The notes under the pieces were generated by a model, which did no database searches, had not been told where the DNA came from, and saw only the letters and a program-made list of their open reading frames with translations. A stretch of 46,070 nt of DNA, taken from a virus. Both the position numbers and the translations under genes were made by a program. Location: IMG/VR virus record IMGVR_UViG_3300021093_000126, positions 1-46,070 of that record; one strand, given 5' to 3'. Positions 6,457 to 28,391 of the stretch are shown piece after piece (position 1 is the stretch's first letter; the number at the start of each line of letters is the position of its first letter).

Positions 6457-8013
6457 TCAAAGCCTCTGTCCTTTGTTGGCATCAACTTGGCTGAAGAACT
6501 TTTGATCCCTGTGCTCTTTCTGGTGATAAACCGTGCAGTTGTAAGCGCACTTGAAATGCACAAACGGACGTAAGCGATTCGTCCACTCCAGGTCTTCTTC
6601 CTGCATGTGACCCAGGGATTCATTGAAGGGTACTTCCAGGAGCAGGTCTCTGTGGACGCAGAAGATATTGCCTGAGATGTACACATCTCCTTGGTGTTGC
6701 CAGTCGCTGTAGTTGTAAAAGACACGTCGATCTAATTCCCGTGGACCATCGAAGCCACTCCAGTCGTACCAAAACCTTTTACCATCTACGCGTTGTTGCG
6801 GGAACGCAAGTACAGACCAGGGATATTCCAACTCGAAACGGTGGAGTGCTTGGTACCAGTGGGGGCTGAGTGTTAAGTAGTCATGTAGTAAACAAAGGCG
6901 TTCATATTGTGCTTCTTGGGCAAGCACATTCTTTTTCTTGGTAATCCACAGGCGACGTACTGATTCATCGAAAGGAATGAACCGAAGGTTTGGATGAGCC
7001 AGATCTGTAGCTAAATCTTCGGGGCATTCAGGACCAATCAAAAGAATTTCATATTCATCCAGGTCTTGGGCGTGGATTGAATTGACACATGTAATAAGGT
7101 GTTCTGGATTGTCGTACCCAGTGCAAATACCGAAGGTGATTGGTGTTTCGTGGTAGTAGTCCTGATTGGAAAATGTATATTTTTGTGACATCTCCAGGCG
7201 TTTGCGGTGATGCGCAACAACCTCAGCGGAGGGAACTACTTCAACGTCATGTTTGATTTCGGCATGGATGAGTGGGTCAACAATGACTTCATATCCATTG
7301 TCACGAAGGGAACGGCAAAAAGCCCAGTGCTCGCAACCTGCTTTTCCGTCCCATTGGACATTGAATTCCAGGGCGTCTGCTTTGATTAGTGCGACTGAAC
7401 CAAAGGCACTCGATACACTTACCGGTTCTTCTGCCTCCCAGGTTTCACGGTCAATTGGAGACAGGAATGGGTTGGAGGCGAAGGTCATCGCCTGGTTACC
7501 ATCGGCATCAATCAATGCCCAGCTGTCGTAATAAGACGGCAAGCCAGTCTCTTCAATAGCATCGGTAACGTCTTGAACAGTATTGGGTGTGATCATGCCC
7601 CAGCTGGGGTTGTCGTCCAGGGCGTCAACCATTCGTTGAATCTGGTCGGGACGGAAGGCCACATTGGTATCGGCCACCAGGAGATAATCGAAATCCCAGT
7701 AGTCAAGGAGTTGCAGGCACATGTTGCGGTACCGTGCCAACCACTGGGTTCGTTCGGTTGACTGGACACTTCCCCATTGTTTGGAATCATTGTGCTCACT
7801 GATGAGAAACCCTTTACGGGTGTCAAGCCAGGAACGCAGGACAAATGGGGTTGTATCTGTGGAGTCGTTCTCCAGAAATGCGTAGATGAATCGATATTTT
7901 TGGGGGATCAGCTCGTCTTCCAGCCACTCGTAGTTGGCAACGGTTTGTTCGGTTCCTTGTCCATTGTTGCGCCACAAAGTGAGAACGGCGATACGCTTGG
8001 CAACTGGCGGCAT
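6457..8013 (-). CDS. Two-domain glycosyltransferase (518 aa)
   Basis: Two GT-A-like halves. Residues 1-280 begin RIAVLTLWRNNGQGTEQTV and contain FLENDSTDTT and LLVADTNVAF, a pattern resembling Anp1/GT62-like mannosyltransferases (the DTN replaces the usual DxD). Residues 285-500 begin ITFGICTGYDNPEHLITCVN, typical of a GT2 N-terminal strand and helix, with LLHDYLTLSPHW and EEDLEWTNRL as the likely metal-binding and acceptor motifs. No signal peptide or membrane segment is seen, so a cytoplasmic enzyme is likely. It may glycosylate virion proteins or host surface glycan with the sugar supplied by the adjacent HAD-nucleotidyltransferase. The donor and acceptor cannot be read from sequence. Confidence 0.75.
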   Translation of the reverse strand: MPPVAKRIAVLTLWRNNGQGTEQTVANYEWLEDELIPQKYRFIYAFLENDSTDTTPFVLRSWLDTRKGFLISEHNDSKQWGSVQSTERTQWLARYRNMCLQLLDYWDFDYLLVADTNVAFRPDQIQRMVDALDDNPSWGMITPNTVQDVTDAIEETGLPSYYDSWALIDADGNQAMTFASNPFLSPIDRETWEAEEPVSVSSAFGSVALIKADALEFNVQWDGKAGCEHWAFCRSLRDNGYEVIVDPLIHAEIKHDVEVVPSAEVVAHHRKRLEMSQKYTFSNQDYYHETPITFGICTGYDNPEHLITCVNSIHAQDLDEYEILLIGPECPEDLATDLAHPNLRFIPFDESVRRLWITKKKNVLAQEAQYERLCLLHDYLTLSPHWYQALHRFELEYPWSVLAFPQQRVDGKRFWYDWSGFDGPRELDRRVFYNYSDWQHQGDVYISGNIFCVHRDLLLEVPFNESLGHMQEEDLEWTNRLRPFVHFKCAYNCTVYHQKEHRDQKFFSQVDANKGQRL

Positions 8014-9838: not shown

Positions 9839-10024
9839 ATGGACGTTCACGTCGCAACGGGAGAGTGGATAAATACCCTCATTAACCGTATGGCACATGC
9901 GGCGGATGGGGACTGTTTTTATCTGCCTTCCCAAATGCATCTTCATGCATTTTTGTTGGCAAAAGAAAGCTCTTTCCCTGAGCGAAACTTTAGAGTGGAA
10001 GTTGAGGAGAAACAAGCAGCATGA
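9839..10024 (+). CDS. Small protein coupled to primase-helicase (61 aa)
   Basis: MDVHVATGEWINTLINRMAH continues with CFYLPSQMHLHAFLLAKE. Its stop overlaps the primase-helicase ATG (ATGA), which is the main support. The frame is closed upstream at 9818, so this is the first available start. A competing 19-codon frame from ATG 9813 runs into a stop at 9870-9872 and is not supported. The function is unknown. Confidence 0.55.
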   Translation: MDVHVATGEWINTLINRMAHAADGDCFYLPSQMHLHAFLLAKESSFPERNFRVEVEEKQAA

Positions 10025-12672
10025 CGAACAAGAACAAGCAAGCCCTTCGTCCAGGGGAAATCAAGCTCGGTTTGATTCCGAAAGATTGGCCCTTGACCCC
10101 ACTGGGGGGAAACAAGGATCCATACGTCAATGGCTGGCAAACCAAGCCATTTAGTGTCGTTGAAATAGAAGACGAAATTACTAAAGGTAAGTGCAAGGCT
10201 GTCGGACTGATCGGCGGTCCTGTTTATAACCATCCATATGGTTTTGTCTGGGTTGATGTCGATGGTCCTTCCGTCTATCAGCTCATTGAGCAAGTGTCGG
10301 ACCTGCCCCTCCAGGAGGCACTGCCGTCAACTTTGACGATTTGCAGCGGGAAGATTGGTCGTGAGCGGAAGCTGTACAAATTAAATCGAGAAAAACACAA
10401 GCATTTTGTCCGTAATAAGTACACGTGGCATGCAGAGGAAAATAAAGAAAAGCTTGAGATCCTTTGGCAAAAGCACCAGGGCGTTCTCATGGGGTTGCAC
10501 CCTGAGACGGACGGTTACTTTACGGCAGAGGATGGTGGGTTTGAGTGGATTGAAACTCTGCCTGAACTGCCGGACTGGATTCTGCAGGCCATCATCCAAA
10601 AGAACGTAAGGCAGGGGGTTCCGGCAGGGGAAACCACACGGATTGTTGGTCCGTCGTTCGCAGTACAGGCGTCAATCAACCTGGAACGCGACATGCAACT
10701 TGCCACCGAGGCAATGTGGGCTATGCCTCCAGAGGCAGCGGATGATTACGACATTTGGATTACGGTCGGTCAGTCGCTTCATGCACTGGATGAATCCTTG
10801 CTTGAAGTGTGGGAAGAGTGGTCGAAACAATCCGAGAAGTATCGGGATGGTGAATGCCACAAGCGGTGGCTTTCATTCTCGAAAGGTGGGGGACGCACCC
10901 TTGGCTCCCTCATTTACATGGCTAAGGAGCATGGCTGGCAGGAGTCGCAGGACTACCGGGCGATGAACGTCGATGATGACACGCTAGAGCACGTGTCCAA
11001 TCTGTTACCTCAAATTGAGCAGGATCTTGGTATGAGTCCAGAAGTGTTGGAGGCTGCGGCCCAGCCATCGGTAAAGAAAACGATGTTGCGGCCAGGGAAG
11101 CCGGAATACCCATCAAAGAAAGAAAAAGAGCAGCGGCCCAAGAACGCATCATCGGATGTCATCGTCGATTTGCTTCTGCAAATGTACCAGGGAAATCTGA
11201 AGTACAGCATTCAGCACGGGCAATTCTTTCTGTATGAGCATGACACCAAGGGTCTTTGGTCTCCATTGACCAAGGTTGAAATGCTGGGTGACATCCGCTC
11301 CAAGCTGAAGACGAAAGGTGTATCGGATCTGTTGCCTGGTGGGTTTAATACCCGGATGATGAACGATATGTATGACCACCTCCAGACCTTGTTGTATTTC
11401 AGGGAGTGGTACGACGGTACAGACCATTTGCTGTTTACGAATGGCGTCCTGGATATTCACACGAGGGAGCTGCTGCCGTTCAATCGTCAAATGCATATGA
11501 CGCAACAAATGCCATATGCGTATGATCCGGCTGCCACTTGTGAAGAAATTGTTAAGTGGCTGAAGCATATTCAGCACGACAGCTGGGAACGTGCTCAGGT
11601 GCTAAGGGCGTGGCTGCGGGCTACACTTCTTGGTCGTTATGAGATTCAGAAGTTTGTTGAGATTGTCGGACCAGGGAAATCAGGGAAGTCGACCTATGCA
11701 AACCTGGCGGTGGCACTGGTTGGCAAGAAAAATGTGTACTCAACTGACTTTGAAAATCTGGAGAAGAACCGATTTGAAGCGGCTGGTTACATGGGTAAGA
11801 AACTGCTGCTGTTCCAAGATGCGGATAGGTGGGGTGGTTCGGTATCTCGATTGAAGGCGATTACCGGTAATGACTGGATCCGTAGTGAACGCAAGTATCA
11901 GAACGAGAATCAGGAACCGTTTCAGTTCAAGGGTGTTGTAATCATTACGGCTAATGAAGCTATTCAGTCAACCGATTACACGTCCGGGCTTTCCAGGAGG
12001 AGACTCACTGTTCCATTCGATCGTCCGTTCAAGGGTGGTCCTCATGAACAAAAGGAACTGATCAAGTTTAATTCGCAGGGTGAACCGCAAGGTGAATTTG
12101 CACCCTTGTTGCCTGGTTTGGTGAACTGGCTCCTCGATATGACGGAGGAGGAAATGCGGGAGTACTTAATGGAAACCGCCAAGAAGGTGAAGTTCTTCCA
12201 GAAGTATGAGAAGATGCAGAACCTTCGTTCCAATCCGTTACTGGATTGGATGGAACACCGACTGGTCTTTGATTTGAATGTGAGTACGGCGGTTGGATTC
12301 ACCAAGAATGCACCGATGGGATCCAGTCACATTTATGCGAATCATGATAAGTGGTTGTATGCCAGCTATGCAGAGTTCTGTCGGCAGTGCAACGTGGGCG
12401 TTATGTCCAGGAATAGGTTTGAGCCATTGTTCTTAGACATCTGTACACACCAGTTAGGTGTCAACGTGTATGCCAAGAGGAGCAAGCGGGGCATGCGGAT
12501 CATTAACGTTGCGGTAAGGGAGTCGAACCCGAAGTATGAAAATTACCCCAGCATTGTTGAGGTTGCTGCTGACAAGAATAAATTCCAAGAGCATTACGGT
12601 GTTGATCTGTATGCACAGCCAAATGCCACTACGGATGCAGATCCTGAGGAAGATGAAATGGAAGTGTTTTGA
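10021..12672 (+). CDS. Primase-helicase, prim-pol plus D5/P4-type SF3 helicase (883 aa)
   Basis: The N-terminal 190 residues resemble the archaeo-eukaryotic primase-polymerase fold: VWVDVDG near residue 80 (metal-binding Asp pair), SGKIGRERKLYKL, and the strand HQGVLMG. Residues about 225-310 look like the PriCT linker (DDYDIWITVGQSLHALDE, then KRWLSFS). Residues 400-540 match D5_N. The SF3 helicase follows: Walker A GPGKSGKST near residue 548, Walker B KKLLLFQDAD, and motif C VVIITANE with a downstream arginine-rich RRRLTVPF. It would unwind and prime phage DNA at the replication fork. The length is usual for such fusions. No phage DNA polymerase gene is visible in the window. Confidence 0.88.
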   Translation: MTNKNKQALRPGEIKLGLIPKDWPLTPLGGNKDPYVNGWQTKPFSVVEIEDEITKGKCKAVGLIGGPVYNHPYGFVWVDVDGPSVYQLIEQVSDLPLQEALPSTLTICSGKIGRERKLYKLNREKHKHFVRNKYTWHAEENKEKLEILWQKHQGVLMGLHPETDGYFTAEDGGFEWIETLPELPDWILQAIIQKNVRQGVPAGETTRIVGPSFAVQASINLERDMQLATEAMWAMPPEAADDYDIWITVGQSLHALDESLLEVWEEWSKQSEKYRDGECHKRWLSFSKGGGRTLGSLIYMAKEHGWQESQDYRAMNVDDDTLEHVSNLLPQIEQDLGMSPEVLEAAAQPSVKKTMLRPGKPEYPSKKEKEQRPKNASSDVIVDLLLQMYQGNLKYSIQHGQFFLYEHDTKGLWSPLTKVEMLGDIRSKLKTKGVSDLLPGGFNTRMMNDMYDHLQTLLYFREWYDGTDHLLFTNGVLDIHTRELLPFNRQMHMTQQMPYAYDPAATCEEIVKWLKHIQHDSWERAQVLRAWLRATLLGRYEIQKFVEIVGPGKSGKSTYANLAVALVGKKNVYSTDFENLEKNRFEAAGYMGKKLLLFQDADRWGGSVSRLKAITGNDWIRSERKYQNENQEPFQFKGVVIITANEAIQSTDYTSGLSRRRLTVPFDRPFKGGPHEQKELIKFNSQGEPQGEFAPLLPGLVNWLLDMTEEEMREYLMETAKKVKFFQKYEKMQNLRSNPLLDWMEHRLVFDLNVSTAVGFTKNAPMGSSHIYANHDKWLYASYAEFCRQCNVGVMSRNRFEPLFLDICTHQLGVNVYAKRSKRGMRIINVAVRESNPKYENYPSIVEVAADKNKFQEHYGVDLYAQPNATTDADPEEDEMEVF

Positions 12673-12730: not shown

Positions 12731-13999
12731 ATGACAAAAAAACCGAAGCTACTTTGGGTTGGTGACATTGTCGCCATGACGGGCTTCGCTCGTGTAACCC
12801 ATAACGTACTGGAGCGCATTAAGGACAAGTACGAGATTGTGGTCCTTGGGTGTAACTGGCATGGTGACCCGGATCCAATGCAGGAGCAGTATCGGATGTA
12901 CCCTGCATCCAACAGATTCCAGCAGGCTCCTTTCGGTGAAGAACGTATTCGTGAACTGGTGGATCGCGAGAAGCCAGACATCGTATTCACGATTAACGAC
13001 ATGTGGATCGTCAATACGCAATACAACCAAATTAAAGATCTGCATAAGGAGCGCGGCTTCAAGTTTGTGGGGTATGTCCCAATGGACTCCTACAACTGGA
13101 TCGGGTGCCTCGCAGATACTGCTAATGAATGGGACGCAATCGTTTCGTATACCGAATTCGGGGCTTACGAATTCATTAACGGTGGTGTCCAGAAGGCAAT
13201 CTCGGTTATCCCTCATGGAGTGACGCCCGGTCAGTTCTATCCCAAGGACAGGGATGAGTGCCGTAAGGAGTTGAGTTTGAGCCCGGAAGACTTCATTGTC
13301 TTCAATGGAAACCGCAATCAATTCCGCAAAAGGATCGACATCACGATCGCTGGCTTTGCTGAGTTCGCCAAAGACAAGCCGAATGCCAAGCTCTACCTCC
13401 ACATGGGGACCAAGGATCAGGGCTGGGATGTGATGCCGATGTTCCACAGGGAAATGCACAAGCGTGGCCTCGATCCGAATGGACGCATCATCATGACTAG
13501 CCCAACGGATGGCCCTCCGAACGTTTCCGTTGAACTACTTAACACCATCTATAACGCCGTTGACGTGGGCGTGAACACATGCAAAGGAGAAGGGTGGGGA
13601 CTGGTTAACTTTGAACACGCAGCCTGCCGTGTGGCCCAGGTAGTGCCCGATCACACGTCTTGTAAGGAGATCTTCCAGGGGTATGGCCGCCTCATCCGCT
13701 GCGACCACGTAGACGTGGATACCAACTTCGGTAGGGAGATGCCCTGCCCTTCCCACCAGCACCTCGCAGAGATCCTCACCGAACTGTACGAGGACCGCGA
13801 AAAGCTGGGTGCGGTTGCCGAACTCTGCTACACCCGCGCCACCGACGAAAAGTTCAACTGGGACTATGTGGCAGAGCAGTTCCACGGGGTATTTACTGAG
13901 GTGCTGAACCCAACGCTGGAGGTTGAGGCACTGGTGGAACCCAAGAGCAAAGGCAAAAAGAAAGGGAAGAACCGCGAGAAGGAACTGGTTACGGCGTAA
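12731..13999 (+). CDS. GT-B glycosyltransferase (422 aa)
   Basis: The Rossmann start KLLWVGDIVAMTGFARVTHN is typical of GT-B enzymes of the GT4 kind. The C-terminal nucleotide-sugar domain contains FNGNRNQFRKRIDITIAGFA, a linker with Lys/Arg contacts for the donor phosphate, and GEGWGLVNFEHAAC, the EX7E donor-binding motif. The last 25 residues are Lys-rich. A retaining transfer from a nucleotide sugar is expected. The acceptor is unknown; phage DNA, virion protein or host glycan are all possible. It sits directly after the primase-helicase and before a strong terminator, far from the other sugar genes, so its role may be tied to early functions such as DNA modification. That last point is inference. 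Confidence 0.8.
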   Translation: MTKKPKLLWVGDIVAMTGFARVTHNVLERIKDKYEIVVLGCNWHGDPDPMQEQYRMYPASNRFQQAPFGEERIRELVDREKPDIVFTINDMWIVNTQYNQIKDLHKERGFKFVGYVPMDSYNWIGCLADTANEWDAIVSYTEFGAYEFINGGVQKAISVIPHGVTPGQFYPKDRDECRKELSLSPEDFIVFNGNRNQFRKRIDITIAGFAEFAKDKPNAKLYLHMGTKDQGWDVMPMFHREMHKRGLDPNGRIIMTSPTDGPPNVSVELLNTIYNAVDVGVNTCKGEGWGLVNFEHAACRVAQVVPDHTSCKEIFQGYGRLIRCDHVDVDTNFGREMPCPSHQHLAEILTELYEDREKLGAVAELCYTRATDEKFNWDYVAEQFHGVFTEVLNPTLEVEALVEPKSKGKKKGKNREKELVTA

Positions 14000-14010
14000 G
14001 GTGGCCTGGG

Positions 14011-14033
14011 CGTGGACGGGATTTCCGGCCACG
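14011..14033 (+). other. Strong hairpin just after the GT-B gene
   Basis: CGTGG-A-CGG-GATTT-CCG-G-CCACG folds into an eight-pair stem with one mismatch, 12 bases after the stop codon. No U-tract follows. It may stabilise the mRNA end ahead of the terminator at 14049. Confidence 0.45.
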
Positions 14034-14048
14034 GTCGCAAGGGGAAAT

Positions 14049-14075
14049 GGCTCTCGCGGAGGCGGGGGCCTTTTT
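14049..14075 (+). terminator. Rho-independent terminator after the replication operon
   Basis: The stem GGCTCTC pairs with GGGGGCC (two G-T wobbles) around an 8-base loop and is followed directly by TTTTT. It ends the plus-strand transcript of exonuclease, primase-helicase and GT-B. Confidence 0.75.
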
Positions 14076-14257
14076 ATTTGAGAACCAAGTCTTATGTTGA
14101 GACTCGTGTGTCGTGCAGACTCTCAACAACGTATCTTTATTGAGAATGGGTTTTGTTGCTGAAATGCCTTGGTATGACTGGTGTCTTGTTTTGAGACTTA
14201 TTTGTTGGTGCAGAGAATGCAGACTTTGGGGGTGGTTTTAACCTTTTACTAGGTCAA

Positions 14258-14282
14258 ATTACAAATCCAAGATCTTTGTCAT
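14258..14282. repeat. 25-base dyad, copy A
   Basis: ATTACAAA, nine bases, then TTTGTCAT. The arms are complementary except for one position. It is the first of three such sites. Confidence 0.55.
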
Positions 14283-14319
14283 TTTTTTGAGAATCATGAG
14301 ACTCACCTAGGAGCAACAA

Positions 14320-14344
14320 ATTACAAAGATCTGAACTTTGTCAT
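14320..14344. repeat. 25-base dyad, copy B
   Basis: ATTACAAAG, seven bases, CTTTGTCAT. Same length and arms as copies A and C, 62 bases downstream of copy A. Confidence 0.55.
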
Positions 14345-14399
14345 TTAGCTATAGATAAGATTAAAAAGACCCCAAAGTCTGCAAAGTCTGCACTCAACC

Positions 14400-14424
14400 A
14401 TTACAATCTTCGTAACTTTGTAAT
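14400..14424. repeat. 25-base dyad, copy C
   Basis: ATTACAA and TTGTAAT arms, perfectly complementary, ending 21 bases before the HNH gene ATG. That position would cover the promoter or leader of the HNH operon. Confidence 0.55.
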
Positions 14425-14445
14425 TGTTTTACGTACTTTTGTACT

Positions 14446-15150
14446 ATGGCAAACGTCTGGAAACCCCTGGAGCTAACGAACAACCATGCCAACTTCAGGC
14501 ATGTCGATCTCATTGACGCTCTCACTGAGTCTCAACTGAGAGAAAAGGGGTACTATCGCGGGCACCCTTGTCCCCATGGCCACACCATTAGGGATCAAGA
14601 CCACCACTGGTGTTACGAGTGTGTTCGGAAGATCATGAGCAACGTCTGTGGGTTCGATGTCAACTACTTGCATCCCGAATACAAGGTCAAATACGCCTCC
14701 ATATGGAAGCGAGTACCGGTTGGTTTCCCCCAGGACTGCTGGCTGATGAACGTGGATGGAAACCGGACGCCATCAAGGGTCTGCCTGCCGTCCTACAGGT
14801 CTGGTTACAGCAAGCAGAAGTCTGAGAATGTGAATATCCATAAGGCGATCTACCAGTGTGCCTGGGGGGATGTGGGGTCGCTGCAGGTAACGAGACTGTG
14901 TGGAGACAAGCGGTGTTGCAACCCTCTCCACTTGGTCTCAAGTTGGAATCGCAACCTGCCGCCAAAGTCCATTTCTCCGCTCGAGATTGAGTTCAAAGCT
15001 GAGAAGCTGATGCTCTACGGCAAGAGAAACAGAGAGCAACAACCCATGGAACCGGTCTTAAAGAAAGATTACAAAATGTCTATTACCGATCCACAATTTG
15101 TTAAGGAACCTCCCGAGTACAATGAGGATACGAATATTTATGATTTTTGA
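14446..15150 (+). CDS. HNH (His-Me finger) endonuclease with N-terminal zinc ribbon (234 aa)
   Basis: The N-terminus has a likely zinc knuckle, CPHGHTIRDQDHHWCYEC, around residues 42-59. The C-terminal half carries VTRLCGDKRCCNPLHLV (near residues 148-164), the Cys/His zinc-bound core seen in His-Me finger homing endonucleases, preceded by HKAIYQ and followed by the SWNRN that supplies the late polar residue. Such enzymes nick or cut DNA and often move as selfish elements. The ATG at 14446 follows the repeat-rich region, and the stop overlaps the next start (TGATG). It could be the mobility enzyme that acts on intron-lacking capsid alleles, or an unrelated free-standing nuclease. Confidence 0.7.
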   Translation: MANVWKPLELTNNHANFRHVDLIDALTESQLREKGYYRGHPCPHGHTIRDQDHHWCYECVRKIMSNVCGFDVNYLHPEYKVKYASIWKRVPVGFPQDCWLMNVDGNRTPSRVCLPSYRSGYSKQKSENVNIHKAIYQCAWGDVGSLQVTRLCGDKRCCNPLHLVSSWNRNLPPKSISPLEIEFKAEKLMLYGKRNREQQPMEPVLKKDYKMSITDPQFVKEPPEYNEDTNIYDF

Positions 15151-16024: not shown

Positions 16025-16245
16025 TGGATGACGCGTATCAAAAGAAAGAAAAAACTATTTACAAAATACCTGAAGCAAAAGTATTACATGAAGCTGCGGT
16101 TGGTTCCGTGGATGAAAAGTTCTTGCGGTACGATATGGCTCGCTTCTTTAGCGGTTGGCAAAAGCGTCAGGCAGATAAACGATTGGATGAACAAACGGTC
16201 AAGAAGACCCAGGGTTCAAAACATGAGTTCGACTTTGACCGGTAA
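16024..16245 (+). CDS. Small charged hypothetical protein (73 aa)
   Basis: Highly charged: MDDAYQKKEKTIYKIPEAKV, ending GSKHEFDFDR. The ATG at 16024 overlaps the previous stop; a GTG one codon upstream is the alternative. The 3' end overlaps the next gene by 23 bases. No domain is recognised. Confidence 0.5.
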   Translation: MDDAYQKKEKTIYKIPEAKVLHEAAVGSVDEKFLRYDMARFFSGWQKRQADKRLDEQTVKKTQGSKHEFDFDR

Positions 16246-16468
16246 GTTGACGCTTGCTGATCAAAAATATCTAATCGAAAAGTTGCGTCAATGGTGTGAA
16301 GAACTTCCGATTCAAGATATGATTGCTTTACGTTGTGAATCTGTTGTTGCGGAAAAGCAATATCGTATCTGGAAAAGATGGTTGCTTACAAAAGAATCAC
16401 CATATGGTTGGTCATTTAGCGATGAACATCTTGCGTTGTATTTTTATAAACACACCCCGATAGAATAA
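16223..16468 (+). CDS. Small hypothetical protein (81 aa)
   Basis: Starts MSSTLTGKLTLADQKYLIEK and continues with QWCEELPIQDMIALRCESVV; predicted helical. The ATG at 16223 lies in the end of the previous gene. A longer frame reading from 16028 would run entirely over that gene and is rejected. The function is unknown. Confidence 0.5.
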   Translation: MSSTLTGKLTLADQKYLIEKLRQWCEELPIQDMIALRCESVVAEKQYRIWKRWLLTKESPYGWSFSDEHLALYFYKHTPIE

Positions 16469-18286: not shown

Positions 18287-20788
18287 TTACCGTGCACGTG
18301 CGTATTTGAAGGGCGATTCGGCGTAGGCGGCGAAGATGTAGGTGCCGCCGGAAGCGTTGCCTGCTGTATGAGAATCTCGGAGCTTGAATCCGTTGGAAAG
18401 GGCATCAATACCAACGCCGATGTTAAGGCTAACCGAGTTTTCTTCAGCCGATGAGTTTGGCACCAGCTCTAGGAACATTTTGTTCCCAGTATCTCTAGCG
18501 GTGTCATAGATCTGCCAGTTTGCTGAGCTGTCTGTGCGCTTAATCATGATCCAACGAGGGCGGAAGCCCAGGAACACGAACGGACCATCGCTGCTGCCGT
18601 TGCCGGTGTAGGAGCCGAACTTGCTGAAGCCCGCGACTTCGGACCACAGGTAGGCGACTTGCGTCACACCATTTGCATTTAATCCAGACGCAGCCCCAAC
18701 CGTAAAAACACTAGAAGTTGGGGCTGTATTGTTCCAAGCGGCGGTAAAAGTTAGGGCTGCGTCCGTAAGGCTTAGGAACAAGGTTTTTGTTGCTCCGATA
18801 CTTTCGTGATAAACCCACCAATCTCCAGTAGCTCCTCTTGATTTCACAAGCACCATTTTTGGCGCTACACCAAGTGAATGTGAAACGTTTTGCGTTGCAC
18901 CAGTGCCGTTAAAGGTCACGATGTCGAAGCCCGGCGTGGCGCTTTCGTCCCAGCACCAGGCGACGTAGGAATCCCCGGTAAGGTTGACACCCTCCATTGT
19001 GGATGTCCCGGCCAATGTAAATCCGTCCGAGGTAAAAGCTGAGATTGTGCCAGCACTTTCCGAAGAAGTTTCGGCGTCAATGGTGTTGCTTTTAAGTGTT
19101 TTATTTCCGCCACGCAGGGTATCAACAAATCGATGGTTGGTAGCTTGCGTTCGATCCTTCAGCCACACCAAATCAGGAGAAAAATTAAGCCCGCTGATGG
19201 TGCGCGGATTTGCATTATCTCCTGCCCACAGCACCGTATCCATATAACTATTGCCTTTAACAATAGTGGGTTCTGGAAGATTGGTACCAACTAAAGCTTT
19301 AAACCCAGTAGGTGCGGTGTATGCGAAGGGACGTTGACCGAAGTTTACGGTAAGAGTTGTAAGAGCTCCTCCAGTATTAATTCCAAAATACAAACCACTG
19401 ATTTCTGCAATATTGCTTACTGTTAATACAGGATTTGTCCCAGTATTTGGAACACCTATACCTACACTATTACTCCCCCATGTTCCATTGCGTCCAAACC
19501 AAACATTTCTTGCTCCACCTGTAAAATCAAAAGCAACTTGTATTACATCACCAACGGAAAACGCTGACGTACACCCGGCTTTAATTGTGGTTGCTCCGTT
19601 TAAGACATCGCCGCCCTGACTTATGTAAAAAGTTCCTGCTGAGTTATATTGAAGATTACTTCGTGCAATACTTTCATATGCAAAACCTACTCCACCATTA
19701 GCGGTGCCTGCATATACGCATTCAAAATAACCCTTAAGATTTTCCGGGCTAAAAGTTGCACGTACATTACGATAACCGCTGTTATTGCTAACGTTTAAAT
19801 CTAAATTACCGTTAGATAAGTAAAAATTTGCCGTTAAACCAGTGCCATCTAAAGGATTTAATGTGCAGTAATTCCCCCTTACTTCTCCACCAACACCAGT
19901 ATCAGTGTTAAAGCTAGTGGGAGAATCAACTAAGGAGTCGTTACCTGCACCAGCTGTGACACTGAAGTTATTAGGTGTCCAGTTATTACTATTGCCACTG
20001 TTATCTTTGCCAAGAGTAGTGGAAGTAGTTCCGGAGTTATCAGAGAAGTTCAGGTAGAAACCATTGGTACCATAAGTACCTGTGTATTTTTTAGGAATCC
20101 ATTGTCCAGTTGTCCCATCAGTTTCCGCAAAGTCAGACGGTGTTAATGCTTGACCGTCAACAAAGTGTGTTTCGGCTAAGTAACTGTCAAGGTAATGGGG
20201 CGTGCCTCCTGTCTTACCAAAATGATGAACTGAGGCTGCGTTGACCCCAGTATTATCATTTTGATTCATGTTGCTTGTTGTGCTAAAAGCAGTTATTTCC
20301 GTTCCATTTACATAAAGTTTTATTCTATTATTAGCTGTGGCTTGCGTTGTATCTACGCTTACCACGACATGATACCAGCCTGATACATCTCTAAATACTT
20401 GAGAAGTTATTCGCCAGTAAGTGCTATACCCAGCAAGTAGTAACCTATCAGATTCAAAGCCTAAATCAAGCCAAGTTGTATCACTTGTCCCGTTGGGGGT
20501 ACTAAATATCGCTTGGAATCCGCCCAACTTAGAACGTTTAACCCAAGCACTCAACGTCCACGTTTTTCTGTTCCCTGAACTTCCAGGAGTCCGGCTTAAA
20601 TCCGCACTATCTGCTGAATTAAAGCGAAGGCTGCGAAAAACGTTATATCCTTCTGGGGGTGGGCCAGGCCATACGTCATCTTTGTTCAGTTTGAATTGCT
20701 GAGCACTATCCCATTCTCCGGTACGAGAAGTTGCACTCCATGCAGAAGGAGTTGCTCCACGGAAACCACCTAAAGGACGAGTGCCCAT
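18287..20788 (-). CDS. Receptor-binding tail fibre, LamG/SPRY type, copy 1 (833 aa)
   Basis: Three parts are visible. The first 45 residues (MGTRPLGGFRGATPSAWSAT) are conserved in copy 2 and probably attach to the virion. Residues 50-260 form a concanavalin-A/LamG-like lectin: RSLRFNSADSADLSRTP, TLSAWVKRS, then GWYHVVVSVDTTQ and the strand NNRIKLYVNGTEI. Residues 310-500 are SPRY-like: GYFECVYAG, SVGDVIQVAFDF, NVWFGRNGTW and VNFGQRPF. The remainder carries FSPDLVWLKDR and ends SPFKYARAR. It would bind cell-surface glycan. The size and layout match fibres of aquatic phages. The gene shares a 54-base identical block with copy 2. Confidence 0.75.
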   Translation of the reverse strand: MGTRPLGGFRGATPSAWSATSRTGEWDSAQQFKLNKDDVWPGPPPEGYNVFRSLRFNSADSADLSRTPGSSGNRKTWTLSAWVKRSKLGGFQAIFSTPNGTSDTTWLDLGFESDRLLLAGYSTYWRITSQVFRDVSGWYHVVVSVDTTQATANNRIKLYVNGTEITAFSTTSNMNQNDNTGVNAASVHHFGKTGGTPHYLDSYLAETHFVDGQALTPSDFAETDGTTGQWIPKKYTGTYGTNGFYLNFSDNSGTTSTTLGKDNSGNSNNWTPNNFSVTAGAGNDSLVDSPTSFNTDTGVGGEVRGNYCTLNPLDGTGLTANFYLSNGNLDLNVSNNSGYRNVRATFSPENLKGYFECVYAGTANGGVGFAYESIARSNLQYNSAGTFYISQGGDVLNGATTIKAGCTSAFSVGDVIQVAFDFTGGARNVWFGRNGTWGSNSVGIGVPNTGTNPVLTVSNIAEISGLYFGINTGGALTTLTVNFGQRPFAYTAPTGFKALVGTNLPEPTIVKGNSYMDTVLWAGDNANPRTISGLNFSPDLVWLKDRTQATNHRFVDTLRGGNKTLKSNTIDAETSSESAGTISAFTSDGFTLAGTSTMEGVNLTGDSYVAWCWDESATPGFDIVTFNGTGATQNVSHSLGVAPKMVLVKSRGATGDWWVYHESIGATKTLFLSLTDAALTFTAAWNNTAPTSSVFTVGAASGLNANGVTQVAYLWSEVAGFSKFGSYTGNGSSDGPFVFLGFRPRWIMIKRTDSSANWQIYDTARDTGNKMFLELVPNSSAEENSVSLNIGVGIDALSNGFKLRDSHTAGNASGGTYIFAAYAESPFKYARAR
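19854..19907 (-). repeat. 54-base block identical to 22874-22927
   Basis: Uninterrupted identity between the two fibre genes at the boundary between the lectin and SPRY-like parts (encodes VGGEVRGNYCTLNP). The flanking DNA diverges quickly, which suggests recent recombination or gene conversion at this junction. Confidence 0.8.
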
Positions 20789-21321: not shown

Positions 21322-23814
21322 TTACCTTGCACGTGCGTATTTAAACGGGTTTTCAGCGAAGGCTGCGTAGATGTAAGTGTTACTACTGGCGTTATAGTCG
21401 CCATAGTTAATTCGGAGTTTGAATCCGTTAGAGAGAATATCAAAAGGATCGTTTGTGCTTTCGGCGATGGTTAAGTTGGCCCAAAGTCTTTTTTCGGTTG
21501 GGTTATAGGGATCTCTGGATGTATCGCGGATTATCCAGCTCCATCCTCCAGCATTAGAGGAGTTTTTAATTAATAGCCACCTTGGTCTAAATCCTGTATA
21601 AATAAACACGCCATCCGTGCTGCCGTTACCGATGTAACTACCAAATGCAGAGTACCCAGCCACTGGGGCGAAGCAGTAGGCGATCATTGAGTCCCCAGAT
21701 GCGTTCGGCGTGAATACTGAAGCTGTTGGTGCGGCTACAACAGCATCTGCTTTTACATCTGTTGTATTCAAGCGCAAATAATCATATGAACCGTCTATAA
21801 CCGTTGTGCCCACAAGCCAGTCAGAAGTTGTATCACGTTTCTTTTCAATAATCAGTTTTGGTGCAACGCCAAGACCATGACCAACTGTGCCTGAAGGATT
21901 AGAATCGTAACTAACAATTGAGAATCCTGCACTTGCGTTTGCCCGAACAGTAGAAGCAATAGTTCCGTCGCTATTTGTGGAATTAGCTGACGCTGAATTC
22001 CAGGCCCAAGCAACGTAAGTGCTTGTGTTTAGATTGACATAATTACCACTATCTGTATTATCACCAAGGCTAAATCCGTCTGCATTAAACGAAGTTAATT
22101 GTTTGGTATATGTAACTTCTGCTGCTGTATTGTTTGTTGACAGTATTTTTGTGTTTCCTCTTACGGCATCCATTACTGCGTTAAAGTAACCAGATGTGCT
22201 GCTCCGGTTTTGGATCCACACTAAATCAGGTGAAAAATTTAATCCGGTAATATCTCTTGCACTTGCATTACCTGTATATAGTGCTATATCAAATTGAGTA
22301 TTGCCTTTAACAATAGTAGGTTCTGGAAGGTTGGTGTCAACTAAAGCTTTAAACCCACTAGGCGCTGTGTATGCGAAGGGACGTTGACCAAAGTTGCAAG
22401 TAATTGTTACGCCTGTTGAATAATGATATGTGGCTGGAACCATTGGGTTTGTTAGACCAGTCGCACTAGGATTTGATCCTGTTGCCGGATTTCCAGACGC
22501 AAACCAAGTCCCATTTTTTCCAAACCAAATTCTGTTGTTATCAGCGTCAAATGCAACCATTAAAACGTCGCCAGAAGAAAGCGCGGTTCCGTAGGAACTA
22601 GAAGAGGCGTTTTGGCGCAATGTTGCGGCATCCATCCAACGCACTGTATCTGCTAATTCCCCTGGGACAGACGTGCTGGCAACACGCATAACACCAATGC
22701 CACCGTTATTGCCGCCTACATTGCCGCCTCCGGTAAAAGTGTATTCCGCATACCATTTACCAGACGAAAGAGCAAAAGTAGAAGTCCAGCCACTATCACT
22801 GTTTGTAACAGTTTTATTTGAAACAAGGTTTCCGTCAGTAGATGCAAGTGTTCCAGTTCCATAAGACTGAAGTGGATTTAATGTGCAGTAATTCCCCCTT
22901 ACTTCTCCACCAACACCAGTATCAGTGCCATAAGAGGTAGGTGTATCTACCAGGGAATCATTACCGGCACCTGCTGTGACACTGAAATTATTAGGAGTCC
23001 AATCGTTACTACCAACACGGTCTTTACCAAGCGTGGTGGAAGTAGTTCCAGAGTTATCAGAGAAATCTAAATAGAAACCATTGGTACCATAAGTACCTAT
23101 GTAATTAATAGGAGTCCACAAGCCAGTGGTTTGATCCGTTGCTCCAAACGAAGAAGGTGTTAATGCCTGGCCGTCAACAAAGTGTGTTTCTGCAAGGTAG
23201 CCATTTAAATGATAAAAAGCTGACGGAGAGTATCGTCCAATTGTATGCGCAGCTGCTTGATTTACACCTAAATCTGCATTTTGAGATGGATTTGTTCTTG
23301 TGCTAAATGCTGTAACTTGAGAGCCATTAACGTATAACCTTACTCTATTATCTGCAGTTGCTTGTGTTGTGTCTACTGTTAGTACTAAATGATACCAGGC
23401 ATTAGTATCTTTAAATACTTGTGATGTGACTAACCAAGTTGACGTGTATCCAACAATAGTTAGTGTTTCTGTGGGTGAAAAGTATACAGAAAATGCCCCA
23501 GCATCGGTGCTAGCAGAATAAACGTCAAAAAGCATTTGTGATCCCACGCCAAGCTCAGATCTTTTTAACCATCCACTCCATGTCCAAGTTTTCCTATTGC
23601 CCGCACCACTTGGCGTCCTGCTTAAATACGCACTATCTGCTGAGTTAAATCTCAGACTTCTTGAGATTGTTACAGGTTCCGCTGGAGGAGTGGGCCACAG
23701 GTTATCTTTTTCTAAAGCAAACTGACTCCGCATGTTCCACATGCCGGAACGTACGGAGGAACTCCATGTAGTAGGAGTTGTGCCGAGATAACCACCTTCC
23801 CGCTTCTTACCCAT
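21322..23814 (-). CDS. Receptor-binding tail fibre, LamG/SPRY type, copy 2 (830 aa)
   Basis: Same layout as copy 1: attachment N-terminus (MGKKREGGYLGTTPTTWSSS), LamG-like lectin (RSLRFNSADSAYLSRTPS, WSGWLKRSELGVG, WYHLVLTVDTTQ, NRVRLYVNGSQV), SPRY-like centre (KWYAEYTFTGGG, GDVLMVAFDADNNRIWFGKN, CNFGQRPFAYTAP) and a C-terminal region ending NPFKYARAR. The lectin and SPRY surfaces differ strongly from copy 1 while the junctions are nearly identical, so the two probably recognise different sugars. It is the first gene of the duplicated fibre-plus-chaperone module in transcription order. Confidence 0.75.
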   Translation of the reverse strand: MGKKREGGYLGTTPTTWSSSVRSGMWNMRSQFALEKDNLWPTPPAEPVTISRSLRFNSADSAYLSRTPSGAGNRKTWTWSGWLKRSELGVGSQMLFDVYSASTDAGAFSVYFSPTETLTIVGYTSTWLVTSQVFKDTNAWYHLVLTVDTTQATADNRVRLYVNGSQVTAFSTRTNPSQNADLGVNQAAAHTIGRYSPSAFYHLNGYLAETHFVDGQALTPSSFGATDQTTGLWTPINYIGTYGTNGFYLDFSDNSGTTSTTLGKDRVGSNDWTPNNFSVTAGAGNDSLVDTPTSYGTDTGVGGEVRGNYCTLNPLQSYGTGTLASTDGNLVSNKTVTNSDSGWTSTFALSSGKWYAEYTFTGGGNVGGNNGGIGVMRVASTSVPGELADTVRWMDAATLRQNASSSSYGTALSSGDVLMVAFDADNNRIWFGKNGTWFASGNPATGSNPSATGLTNPMVPATYHYSTGVTITCNFGQRPFAYTAPSGFKALVDTNLPEPTIVKGNTQFDIALYTGNASARDITGLNFSPDLVWIQNRSSTSGYFNAVMDAVRGNTKILSTNNTAAEVTYTKQLTSFNADGFSLGDNTDSGNYVNLNTSTYVAWAWNSASANSTNSDGTIASTVRANASAGFSIVSYDSNPSGTVGHGLGVAPKLIIEKKRDTTSDWLVGTTVIDGSYDYLRLNTTDVKADAVVAAPTASVFTPNASGDSMIAYCFAPVAGYSAFGSYIGNGSTDGVFIYTGFRPRWLLIKNSSNAGGWSWIIRDTSRDPYNPTEKRLWANLTIAESTNDPFDILSNGFKLRINYGDYNASSNTYIYAAFAENPFKYARAR
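22874..22927 (-). repeat. 54-base block identical to 19854-19907
   Basis: Second copy of the junction block in fibre 2. Confidence 0.8.
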
Positions 23815-27962: not shown

Positions 27963-28391
27963 ATGACCTACGGCATCAGGAAAGGACTTGAAGACATTGC
28001 GTTTGAGCTGAAAGGAATCAGGGCTGCTCTCAGCGCAATGTGGAGAGTTCGCTACGAATATGACGAAACGGACGTATTGCATCCAGAGGTTTACGCAGAT
28101 GAGTTTATCTCAACAGAAGAGTGCGCTCGTAGGCTTGGCGTCTCAGATCAAACGATTCGCAACTGGATTTCCATTGGGAGAAAAGATAAGAAAAACGGCT
28201 GGAAAGAAGGTTTGCATTACGTCAACATCTCCCCAGATGGCCACAAGAAAGCAGTCATTCGAATTCCCTGGAACGAACTGGTGCGTTCAGTAGTTAAGAA
28301 CCGTAAAACTACCTTCCAAGATTTTACGGAAGGCTCTCGGCCTATTTACCAGAAAGCTGCAGCGAAGAAAGATGTTGATAACAAGATTTGA
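27963..28391 (+). CDS. Helix-turn-helix DNA-binding protein (142 aa)
   Basis: Residues about 50-105 form a MerR/excisionase-type winged helix: FISTEECARRLGVSDQTIRN, WISIGRKDKKNGWKEGLHYV, then a wing ISPDGHKKAVIRIPWNELV. The first 45 residues may mediate dimerisation. It is the first gene of a plus-strand operon and starts only 31 bases from a divergent minus-strand gene, fitting a local regulator that binds between them. It could act as repressor or recombination directionality factor. Confidence 0.65.
   Translation: MTYGIRKGLEDIAFELKGIRAALSAMWRVRYEYDETDVLHPEVYADEFISTEECARRLGVSDQTIRNWISIGRKDKKNGWKEGLHYVNISPDGHKKAVIRIPWNELVRSVVKNRKTTFQDFTEGSRPIYQKAAAKKDVDNKI

Follow-up and report, generated by a model that had tools for sequence, protein, structure and literature searches.

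The closest described counterparts of the region reported here are stem-loops that lie beside genes for replication proteins. In pRN1 a 100-base stem-loop located 3′ of the Prim-Pol-type replication gene is required for replication, and it is the structure of this element, not its sequence, that is conserved; in phage BIP-1 a similar stem-loop is found 3′ of the gene for its replication protein, which has a PriCT_2 domain, and the same role has been proposed for it (both as given in the part of PMC4234260 drawn on here). The authors of that work describe the pRN1 origin as putative and say that direct evidence of origin function is lacking (PMC4234260). The origins of SaPIs lie directly 3′ of the rep helicase gene, and the SCCmec helicase requires direct repeats and not inverted ones, according to the sections of PMC7581432 that deal with these elements.

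The DNA analysed, referred to as the window, is a stretch of 46,070 bases from the IMG/VR virus record IMGVR_UViG_3300021093_000126, and the nearest named relative that we found is the Synechococcus cyanophage S-EIV1 (KJ410740). We propose that positions 14199-14424 are the replication origin of an S-EIV1-like cyanophage, and we put the probability of this reading at roughly 0.7. The region is an imperfect inverted repeat, as are the origins suggested for pRN1 and for phages whose replication protein is of the Prim-Pol/SF3 type. No origin of the S-EIV1 lineage is named in the titles and abstract openings among the papers listed by literature searches, a scope outside which the S-EIV1 genome paper falls. 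Such an origin is ordinary in kind, since the type has already been proposed; it is newly located as far as we searched, and it is kept in most of the lineage sampled.

Gene block, inverted repeat and dyads of the window

The primase-helicase gene (10021..12672, + strand) encodes Prim-Pol, PriCT_2, D5_N and DUF5906 domains, and its product is the proposed origin-binding replication protein. The Prim-Pol domain matches PF09250 with 32.1 bits (cut-off 22.8), and PriCT_2 and the SF3/D5-type helicase part are represented by matches above cut-off to PF08707, PF08706 and PF19263. The protein has one PDB match, to the DNA primase 7ola over profile positions 386-681, and beyond residue 660, in the C-terminal part where the pRN1/BIP-1 type has a winged-helix DNA-binding domain, there is no Pfam hit; residues 1-335 match BPP-1/BIP-1 with 25 % identity (E-value about 1e-5). 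A glycosyltransferase gene follows (12731..13999, + strand), then a noncoding gap, the gene for an HNH-like (His-Me finger) protein (14446..15150, + strand), and in the same block genes for conserved proteins of 248 and 146 amino acids. The last of these (16028..16468, + strand; phrog_38455) has distant matches in cyanophages S-RIP2, KBS-P-1A and S-SBP1, and its confident model (pLDDT 86) found no convincing PDB match. The order exonuclease, primase, glycosyltransferase, gap, HNH-like protein, 248-aa and 146-aa proteins is largely kept in relatives. We count against the origin reading that the glycosyltransferase gene stands between the primase gene and the repeat, both in the window and in most of its relatives. 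Elsewhere in the window, two large neighbouring genes (18287-20788 and 21322-23814) have by eye similar N-terminal parts and a small gene beside each, and are perhaps a duplicated pair of tail fibre and assembly factor genes.

When the intergenic sequence 14000-14445 was aligned with its own reverse complement, a large inverted repeat was found at 14199-14403 that the first-pass annotation had missed. The left arm (14199..14287) and the right arm (14315..14403) are each 89 bases long, are identical at 68 of 87 aligned positions and are separated by a loop of 27 bases (14288..14314). The repeat scores 37, as compared with a maximum of 13 in 30 shuffles, and is the best in the window, where the runner-up scores 15; as a single DNA strand, 14199-14403 folds with a z-score of −7.05 (DNA parameters). 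Two iteron-like AAAGTCTGCA repeats 9 bases apart (14374..14392, + strand) lie towards the outer end of the right arm. Their inverted counterpart in the left arm (14209..14227, − strand) has one exact AAAGTCTGCA (14218-14227) and, by eye, a degenerate second unit 9 bases on; the tandem units agree at 9/9 positions in the right arm and at 6/9 in the left. The right arm also contains an A+T-rich block (14345..14368, + strand) that could be an unwinding element or a −10 region.

Upstream of the repeat, after the glycosyltransferase gene, a consensus scan found an intrinsic-terminator-like hairpin with a T tract (14049..14078, + strand), which is not in itself evidence of function. We note that TGAGACTC and GTCTCA words recur by eye beside the repeat, at 14080-14200 and in the equivalent place in several relatives. 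Their paired form, TCTCA-N-TGAGA, was considered as a motif specific to the region and rejected, being scattered and not unique there.

The inner ends of the arms carry the features that had first drawn attention to this region, which were described as three equal 25-base dyads set 62 and 80 bases apart, of a kind that usually binds a dimeric protein. Dyad 1 (14258..14282, + strand) at the inner end of the left arm and dyad 2 (14320..14344, + strand) at the inner end of the right arm are indeed exact copies of ATTACAAA-N9-TTTGTCAT, and the spacings are as claimed when counted from start to start, but dyad 3 (14400..14424, + strand; ATTACAATCTTCGTAACTTTGTAAT) departs from the pattern at two positions, one in each half. 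Despite these mismatches dyad 3 has the highest symmetry of the three; it shares 4 bases with the end of the right arm, and 21 bases separate it from the start codon of the HNH-like gene. The statement that the window has no other copy holds to within 3 mismatches of the literal pattern, the six matches being the three sites read on both strands, against 0.90 expected, and six is a number reached in none of 100 shuffles. For the symmetric form of the dyad the next best + strand site is at 19387, with 3 mismatches. A looser core, TNACA-N13-TGTNA, is present four times in the 46 kb, against an expectation of 1.07 and with at least as many copies in 2 of 100 shuffles; three of the four occurrences fall in the 165 bases of the dyads.

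The inverted repeat in related loci

Relatives were gathered in two ways. A search with the primase yielded 29 loci (28 with an identity of at least 60 %), and the best 80 of 276 matches to a profile of the HNH-like protein, partly on the same contigs as the primase loci, were added. All 276 come from a viral collection, as against a single match, S-EIV1, among 50,697 phage records. The 108 loci with the HNH-like gene assembled in this way (window and S-EIV1 included) were reduced to 59 distinct loci by removal of 46 near-duplicates and of three with short upstream sequence; L213, which has no sequence upstream of its HNH-like gene, is outside this count.

Within the 1.1 kb preceding the HNH-like gene, 49 of the 59 distinct loci (from the best 80 of the 276 profile matches and the primase search) have an inverted repeat that scores at least 19, with a median arm of 74 bases, a median identity of 75 % and loops of 9 to 210 bases. 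The ten loci in which no repeat of at least 19 was found are L003 (17), L005, L024, L194, L195, L196 (16), L198, L215, L217 and L233, of which L198 and L215 have less than 500 bases upstream. End-to-end scans of 22 loci rank this repeat first in 19 of them, with a shared top score in one (L003, 15); the scan of L005 found no such repeat, and the top-scoring pair of L024 (17), located in the same gap, has a 430-base loop and was left uncounted. In four relatives of 82-85 kb, scanned piece by piece, it is the best of the entire record.

The dependence on sequence is loose: among distant relatives the arms share little sequence and yet each repeat is still symmetric. In an alignment of ten loci picked for similar form and excluding the window (A6), 15 of 56 pairs are changed on both sides, which 5 of 500 shuffles reach, and the covariation is 0.206, as against 0.107 in shuffles (0 of 500 reach it) and at most 0.086 in slid structures. 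Two smaller alignments, A7 (4 loci) and A8 (6 loci), show no excess of compensatory change over slid controls. Conservation of structure and not of sequence, as in an origin of the pRN1/BIP-1 type, is thus indicated by the 49 of 59 loci and by A6, with A7 and A8 lending no support.

An element whose arms pair would also be expected if the transcript formed a long hairpin, as in an attenuator or a processed RNA, and the strong folding potential and the several A6 pairs that vary through G-U both fit such an RNA. The mismatches between arms, however, are without bias towards G-U on the + strand (140 of the + RNA type, 217 of the − RNA type and 547 transversions, counted over 49 related loci and so not independent), and therefore a + strand RNA hairpin is unlikely as the selected feature; a − strand RNA is conceivable. 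The terminator-like site upstream of the repeat also speaks against an RNA element, as does the fact that Rfam returned only microRNA-precursor families at 20-33 bits, far under the gathering scores of 139-195, which we take to be hairpin look-alikes and rejected as candidates. We regard this explanation as very unlikely.

The two arms are not equivalent. Of the 49 right arms 19 carry an A+T-rich motif, of the AAAGATAAAA type, that no left arm has, and the more A+T-rich 16-base stretch is in the right arm in 34 loci and in the left in 3, with 12 ties. Tandem repeats of at least 8/9 at a lag of 8 or 9 are found in 16 of 49 right arms and in 3 of 49 left arms (0-0.7 % in shuffles). In 38 of the 49 loci the left arm is nearer to an arm of another locus than to its own right arm, and the nearest is a relative's left arm. 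Closeness of the two arms of one repeat was set aside as a measure: the right arm of the same locus is the closest arm to the left one in just 11 of the 49, since near relatives are more alike.

This asymmetry bears on whether the region could be an invertible segment or recombination site, with the internal dyads as the crossover sites of a recombinase between inverted arms. Recombinase sites resemble spacer-bearing dyads within inverted repeats, and the dyads of the window, lying within its inverted repeat, have that look. Against this are the loops, which are as short as 9 bases, and the arms themselves, which are not freely exchanged because they are side-specific, both in their nearest neighbours (38/49) and in their A+T-rich motif (19 right, 0 left). 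A PHROGs scan of 20 window proteins named no recombinase, with a weak excisionase-type match at 27963-28388, and we consider recombination an extremely improbable function of the repeat. The gene at 27963-28391 encodes an HTH protein with weak MerR/excisionase-type matches.

The position of the repeat is more open to a second reading. Every one of the 49 loci with the repeat has it at the head of the HNH-like gene block. In three near-identical records (L006, L007 and L029) the glycosyltransferase gene follows the HNH-like gene, and the repeat is again found in front of the latter. In 14 of the 49 loci no more than 130 bases separate the end of the repeat from the HNH-like start codon, and no ORF of 80 amino acids or longer intervenes; these 14 form the comparable set used below, and the other 35 have such an ORF. 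We note that in L009 a small ORF of 118 amino acids (12821-13177; MPRTYRPMPPLWY...HRLMYYLKTGDDPGSSDV...), with counterparts in other relatives and none in the window, lies between the repeat and the HNH-like gene, and that by eye it resembles another reduced HNH-type protein.

A place at the head of the gene block would be expected of an operator-promoter alone, in which dyads and arms let the HNH-like protein or a host regulator control the downstream operon with no part in replication, and the A+T-rich block in the right arm and the further dyad before the start codon in 7 of the 14 comparable loci are also in its favour. Such control does not account, however, for arms that are symmetric over about 45-125 bases, the left one being a mirror image that faces the end of the upstream gene, or for the repeats described below for phages BPP-1, Acinetobacter 4316 and Sfi21. 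We judge it unlikely that regulation of the operon is the only role, and prefer an origin at this place.

The literal dyad sequence was of little help among relatives. The symmetric form has no match with 2 mismatches or fewer in 29 relative loci, and therefore symmetry and not sequence was searched for; a literal scan of viral contigs, which returned at least 120 scattered stretches, was discarded as the pattern is too A+T-rich to inform. A symmetric NNACA-N12..16-TGTNN is present within the repeat in 40 of the 49 loci, with two or more copies in 26, as compared with 11 % of shuffled repeats that have one, a comparison that is generous because the regions were picked for their symmetry. In 7 of the 14 comparable loci, window included, an extra dyad lies past the right arm and ahead of the HNH-like start codon, against 1.9 % of shuffled regions. 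Binding by a dimeric protein, as first suggested, fits these palindromic half-sites and the dyad before the start codon; what does not stand is the picture of a free-standing operator array, because two of the dyads are the inner part of the 205-base inverted repeat, which is the conserved unit. The automatic count found no inner dyad in the repeats of L167 and L189, in both of which the start-codon dyad carries CGACA, a half-site variant that by eye is also in their own repeats. This shared CGACA is the best sign that one protein may read both places.

The HNH-like protein and a possible mechanism

The protein encoded at 14446..15150 is the candidate binder of the dyads. It matches HNH families weakly, and a profile match to I-PpoI is also weak (E-value 0.8-1.5) but falls on a C-x4-C-x-NPLHL motif common to the two proteins. 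In this weak alignment the catalytic histidine of an HNH endonuclease, His98 of I-PpoI, is missing and is replaced by arginine, Arg150 in the window; the same is true of all 108 sequences (window and near-duplicates included, from the best 80 of 276 matches). The N-terminal part has a stretch rich in cysteine and histidine (CxHGH...HWCYxC...CGF). A structural model (pLDDT 65) returned E-values above 2 in Foldseek, and among the 20 alignments listed by VIA-align the top 19 are to NFI, I-PpoI and Smad MH1, with Z-scores of 3.8-5.4, where values below 8 may reflect only a shared arrangement. The likeness to the DNA-binding domain of NFI and to Smad MH1 should be read with both the Z of at most 5.4 and the pLDDT of only 65 in mind. 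The full HNH-like frame is conserved in S-EIV1 (KJ410740, 7027-7704, − strand). We note that it is annotated there as a shorter hypothetical ORF (7027-7467) and two tiny ORFs on the opposite strand.

From these features we infer that the protein binds DNA without cleaving it, and we propose that the dyads are its sites. If it does bind them, a nuclease fold would have been turned into a DNA-binding regulator in a phage. A more specific history, that of a homing-endonuclease fold that lost catalysis and now both binds the origin and regulates itself throughout a phage family, is tentative and in our opinion rather doubtful; if true, protein and site would have drifted together, and the lineage-specific dyads would be a record of this. 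It would have a parallel in NFI, a transcription and replication factor with a role in adenovirus DNA replication (as stated in the portion of PMC1277823 used here). NFIX, however, binds palindromic DNA as a monomer and differs from MH1 (PMC12854730, in the part cited), and this counts against the NFI analogy where dimers are concerned.

The pairing of proteins with elements, the unwinding and the initiation might proceed as follows. The primase-helicase encoded upstream would recognize the outer AAAGTCTGCA units, two of them 9 bases apart and inverted between the arms, and would assemble on the arms with twofold symmetry; it could then unwind the right arm at its A+T-rich stretch and prime the two strands. 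A dimeric protein would occupy the inner dyads (TNACA-N12..16-TGTNA); the HNH-like protein encoded downstream is the candidate, and by also binding dyad 3 it may control its own gene.

GC skew was considered as evidence for an origin at the repeat and is unsupportive in S-EIV1 and in four long relatives. In S-EIV1, whose repeat is at 7.8-8.0 kb, the cumulative skew reaches its minimum near 34 kb, so that the skew does not mark the repeat as a bidirectional origin, and no common pattern is seen at the repeat in the four relatives of 82-85 kb. The mean third-position skew falls from the glycosyltransferase gene (−0.02) to the HNH-like gene (−0.14) and varies gene by gene. The skew minimum at about 34 kb in S-EIV1 lies near polymerase and thymidylate synthase genes with no switch of the gene strand, and is possibly a second replication landmark.

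Comparison with known origins and other phages

Thirteen phages, hand-picked from homology hits plus Sfi21, were scored for inverted repeats within 1.3 kb 3′ of their primase genes; DSL-LC05, whose downstream side lies outside its stretch, is not among them. Six of the 13 score at least 19 (BPP-1 33, Sfi21 30, Acinetobacter 4316 25, RcMcDreamy 22, AH2 21 and S-LBS1 19), whereas among 87 other stretches taken from these loci 4 reach that score, and these four include a near-equal repeat elsewhere in BPP-1 (32) and an equal one in AH2 (21). The remaining seven score below 19 in the same interval (Suzuki 17, Clavibacter 33 17, Aster 17, 9NA 15, LR797314 13, LIET2 12 and ZP6 10). We count these seven against the origin reading, together with the ten loci of the lineage that have no repeat of at least 19 and with the small share of arms that have clear tandem units. 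Long arms with short loops, as in the window, are found only in BPP-1, Sfi21 and Acinetobacter 4316 (arms 57-78, loops 2-14), and by eye these three also have tandem units 8-9 bases apart in the arms and an A+T-rich inner part. The repeats of RcMcDreamy, AH2 and S-LBS1 are unlike that of the window, with short arms and loops of 232-346 bases.

A search rule is suggested by these comparisons, namely to look 3′ of genes for Prim-Pol or D5-type primase-helicases for an inverted repeat that contains tandem units, and it recovers the annotated origin of an unrelated phage, Sfi21, a chosen control. Sfi21 was selected because it has a known origin, whose experimental basis we take from the record annotation, and is for this reason a positive control and not a blind test. 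For a cyanophage lineage with many uncultivated records, the repeat described here provides a concrete and testable candidate origin.

Streptococcus phage Sfi21 (NC_000872) offers a close likeness in form. Its repeat lies inside the annotated origin of replication, a noncoding region of 302 bp, directly 3′ of the putative primase gene, and is the best inverted repeat of a 14.7-kb stretch (32; next 17); by eye, tandem TTAGTTAC units 8 bases apart are inverted between the arms and the middle is A+T-rich. The sequence is unrelated to that of the window. S-EIV1 shares with the window the same gene block and, in the equivalent position, an inverted repeat that scores 25 and has arms of about 60 bases, but its inner sequence is of the TTACATATCC type and no dyad was found between the repeat and the start codon.

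With pRN1 and BIP-1 the window has in common a protein that combines Prim-Pol with an SF3-type helicase (and, in BIP-1, PriCT_2) and, 3′ of the gene for this protein, a large noncoding stem-loop, in the window with one gene between. It differs from both in the glycosyltransferase gene that usually intervenes, in the dyads at the inner ends of the arms and in the HNH-like gene that follows, and it has at the outer ends of the arms iteron-like repeats that pRN1, in the part of the account cited, is without (PMC4234260).
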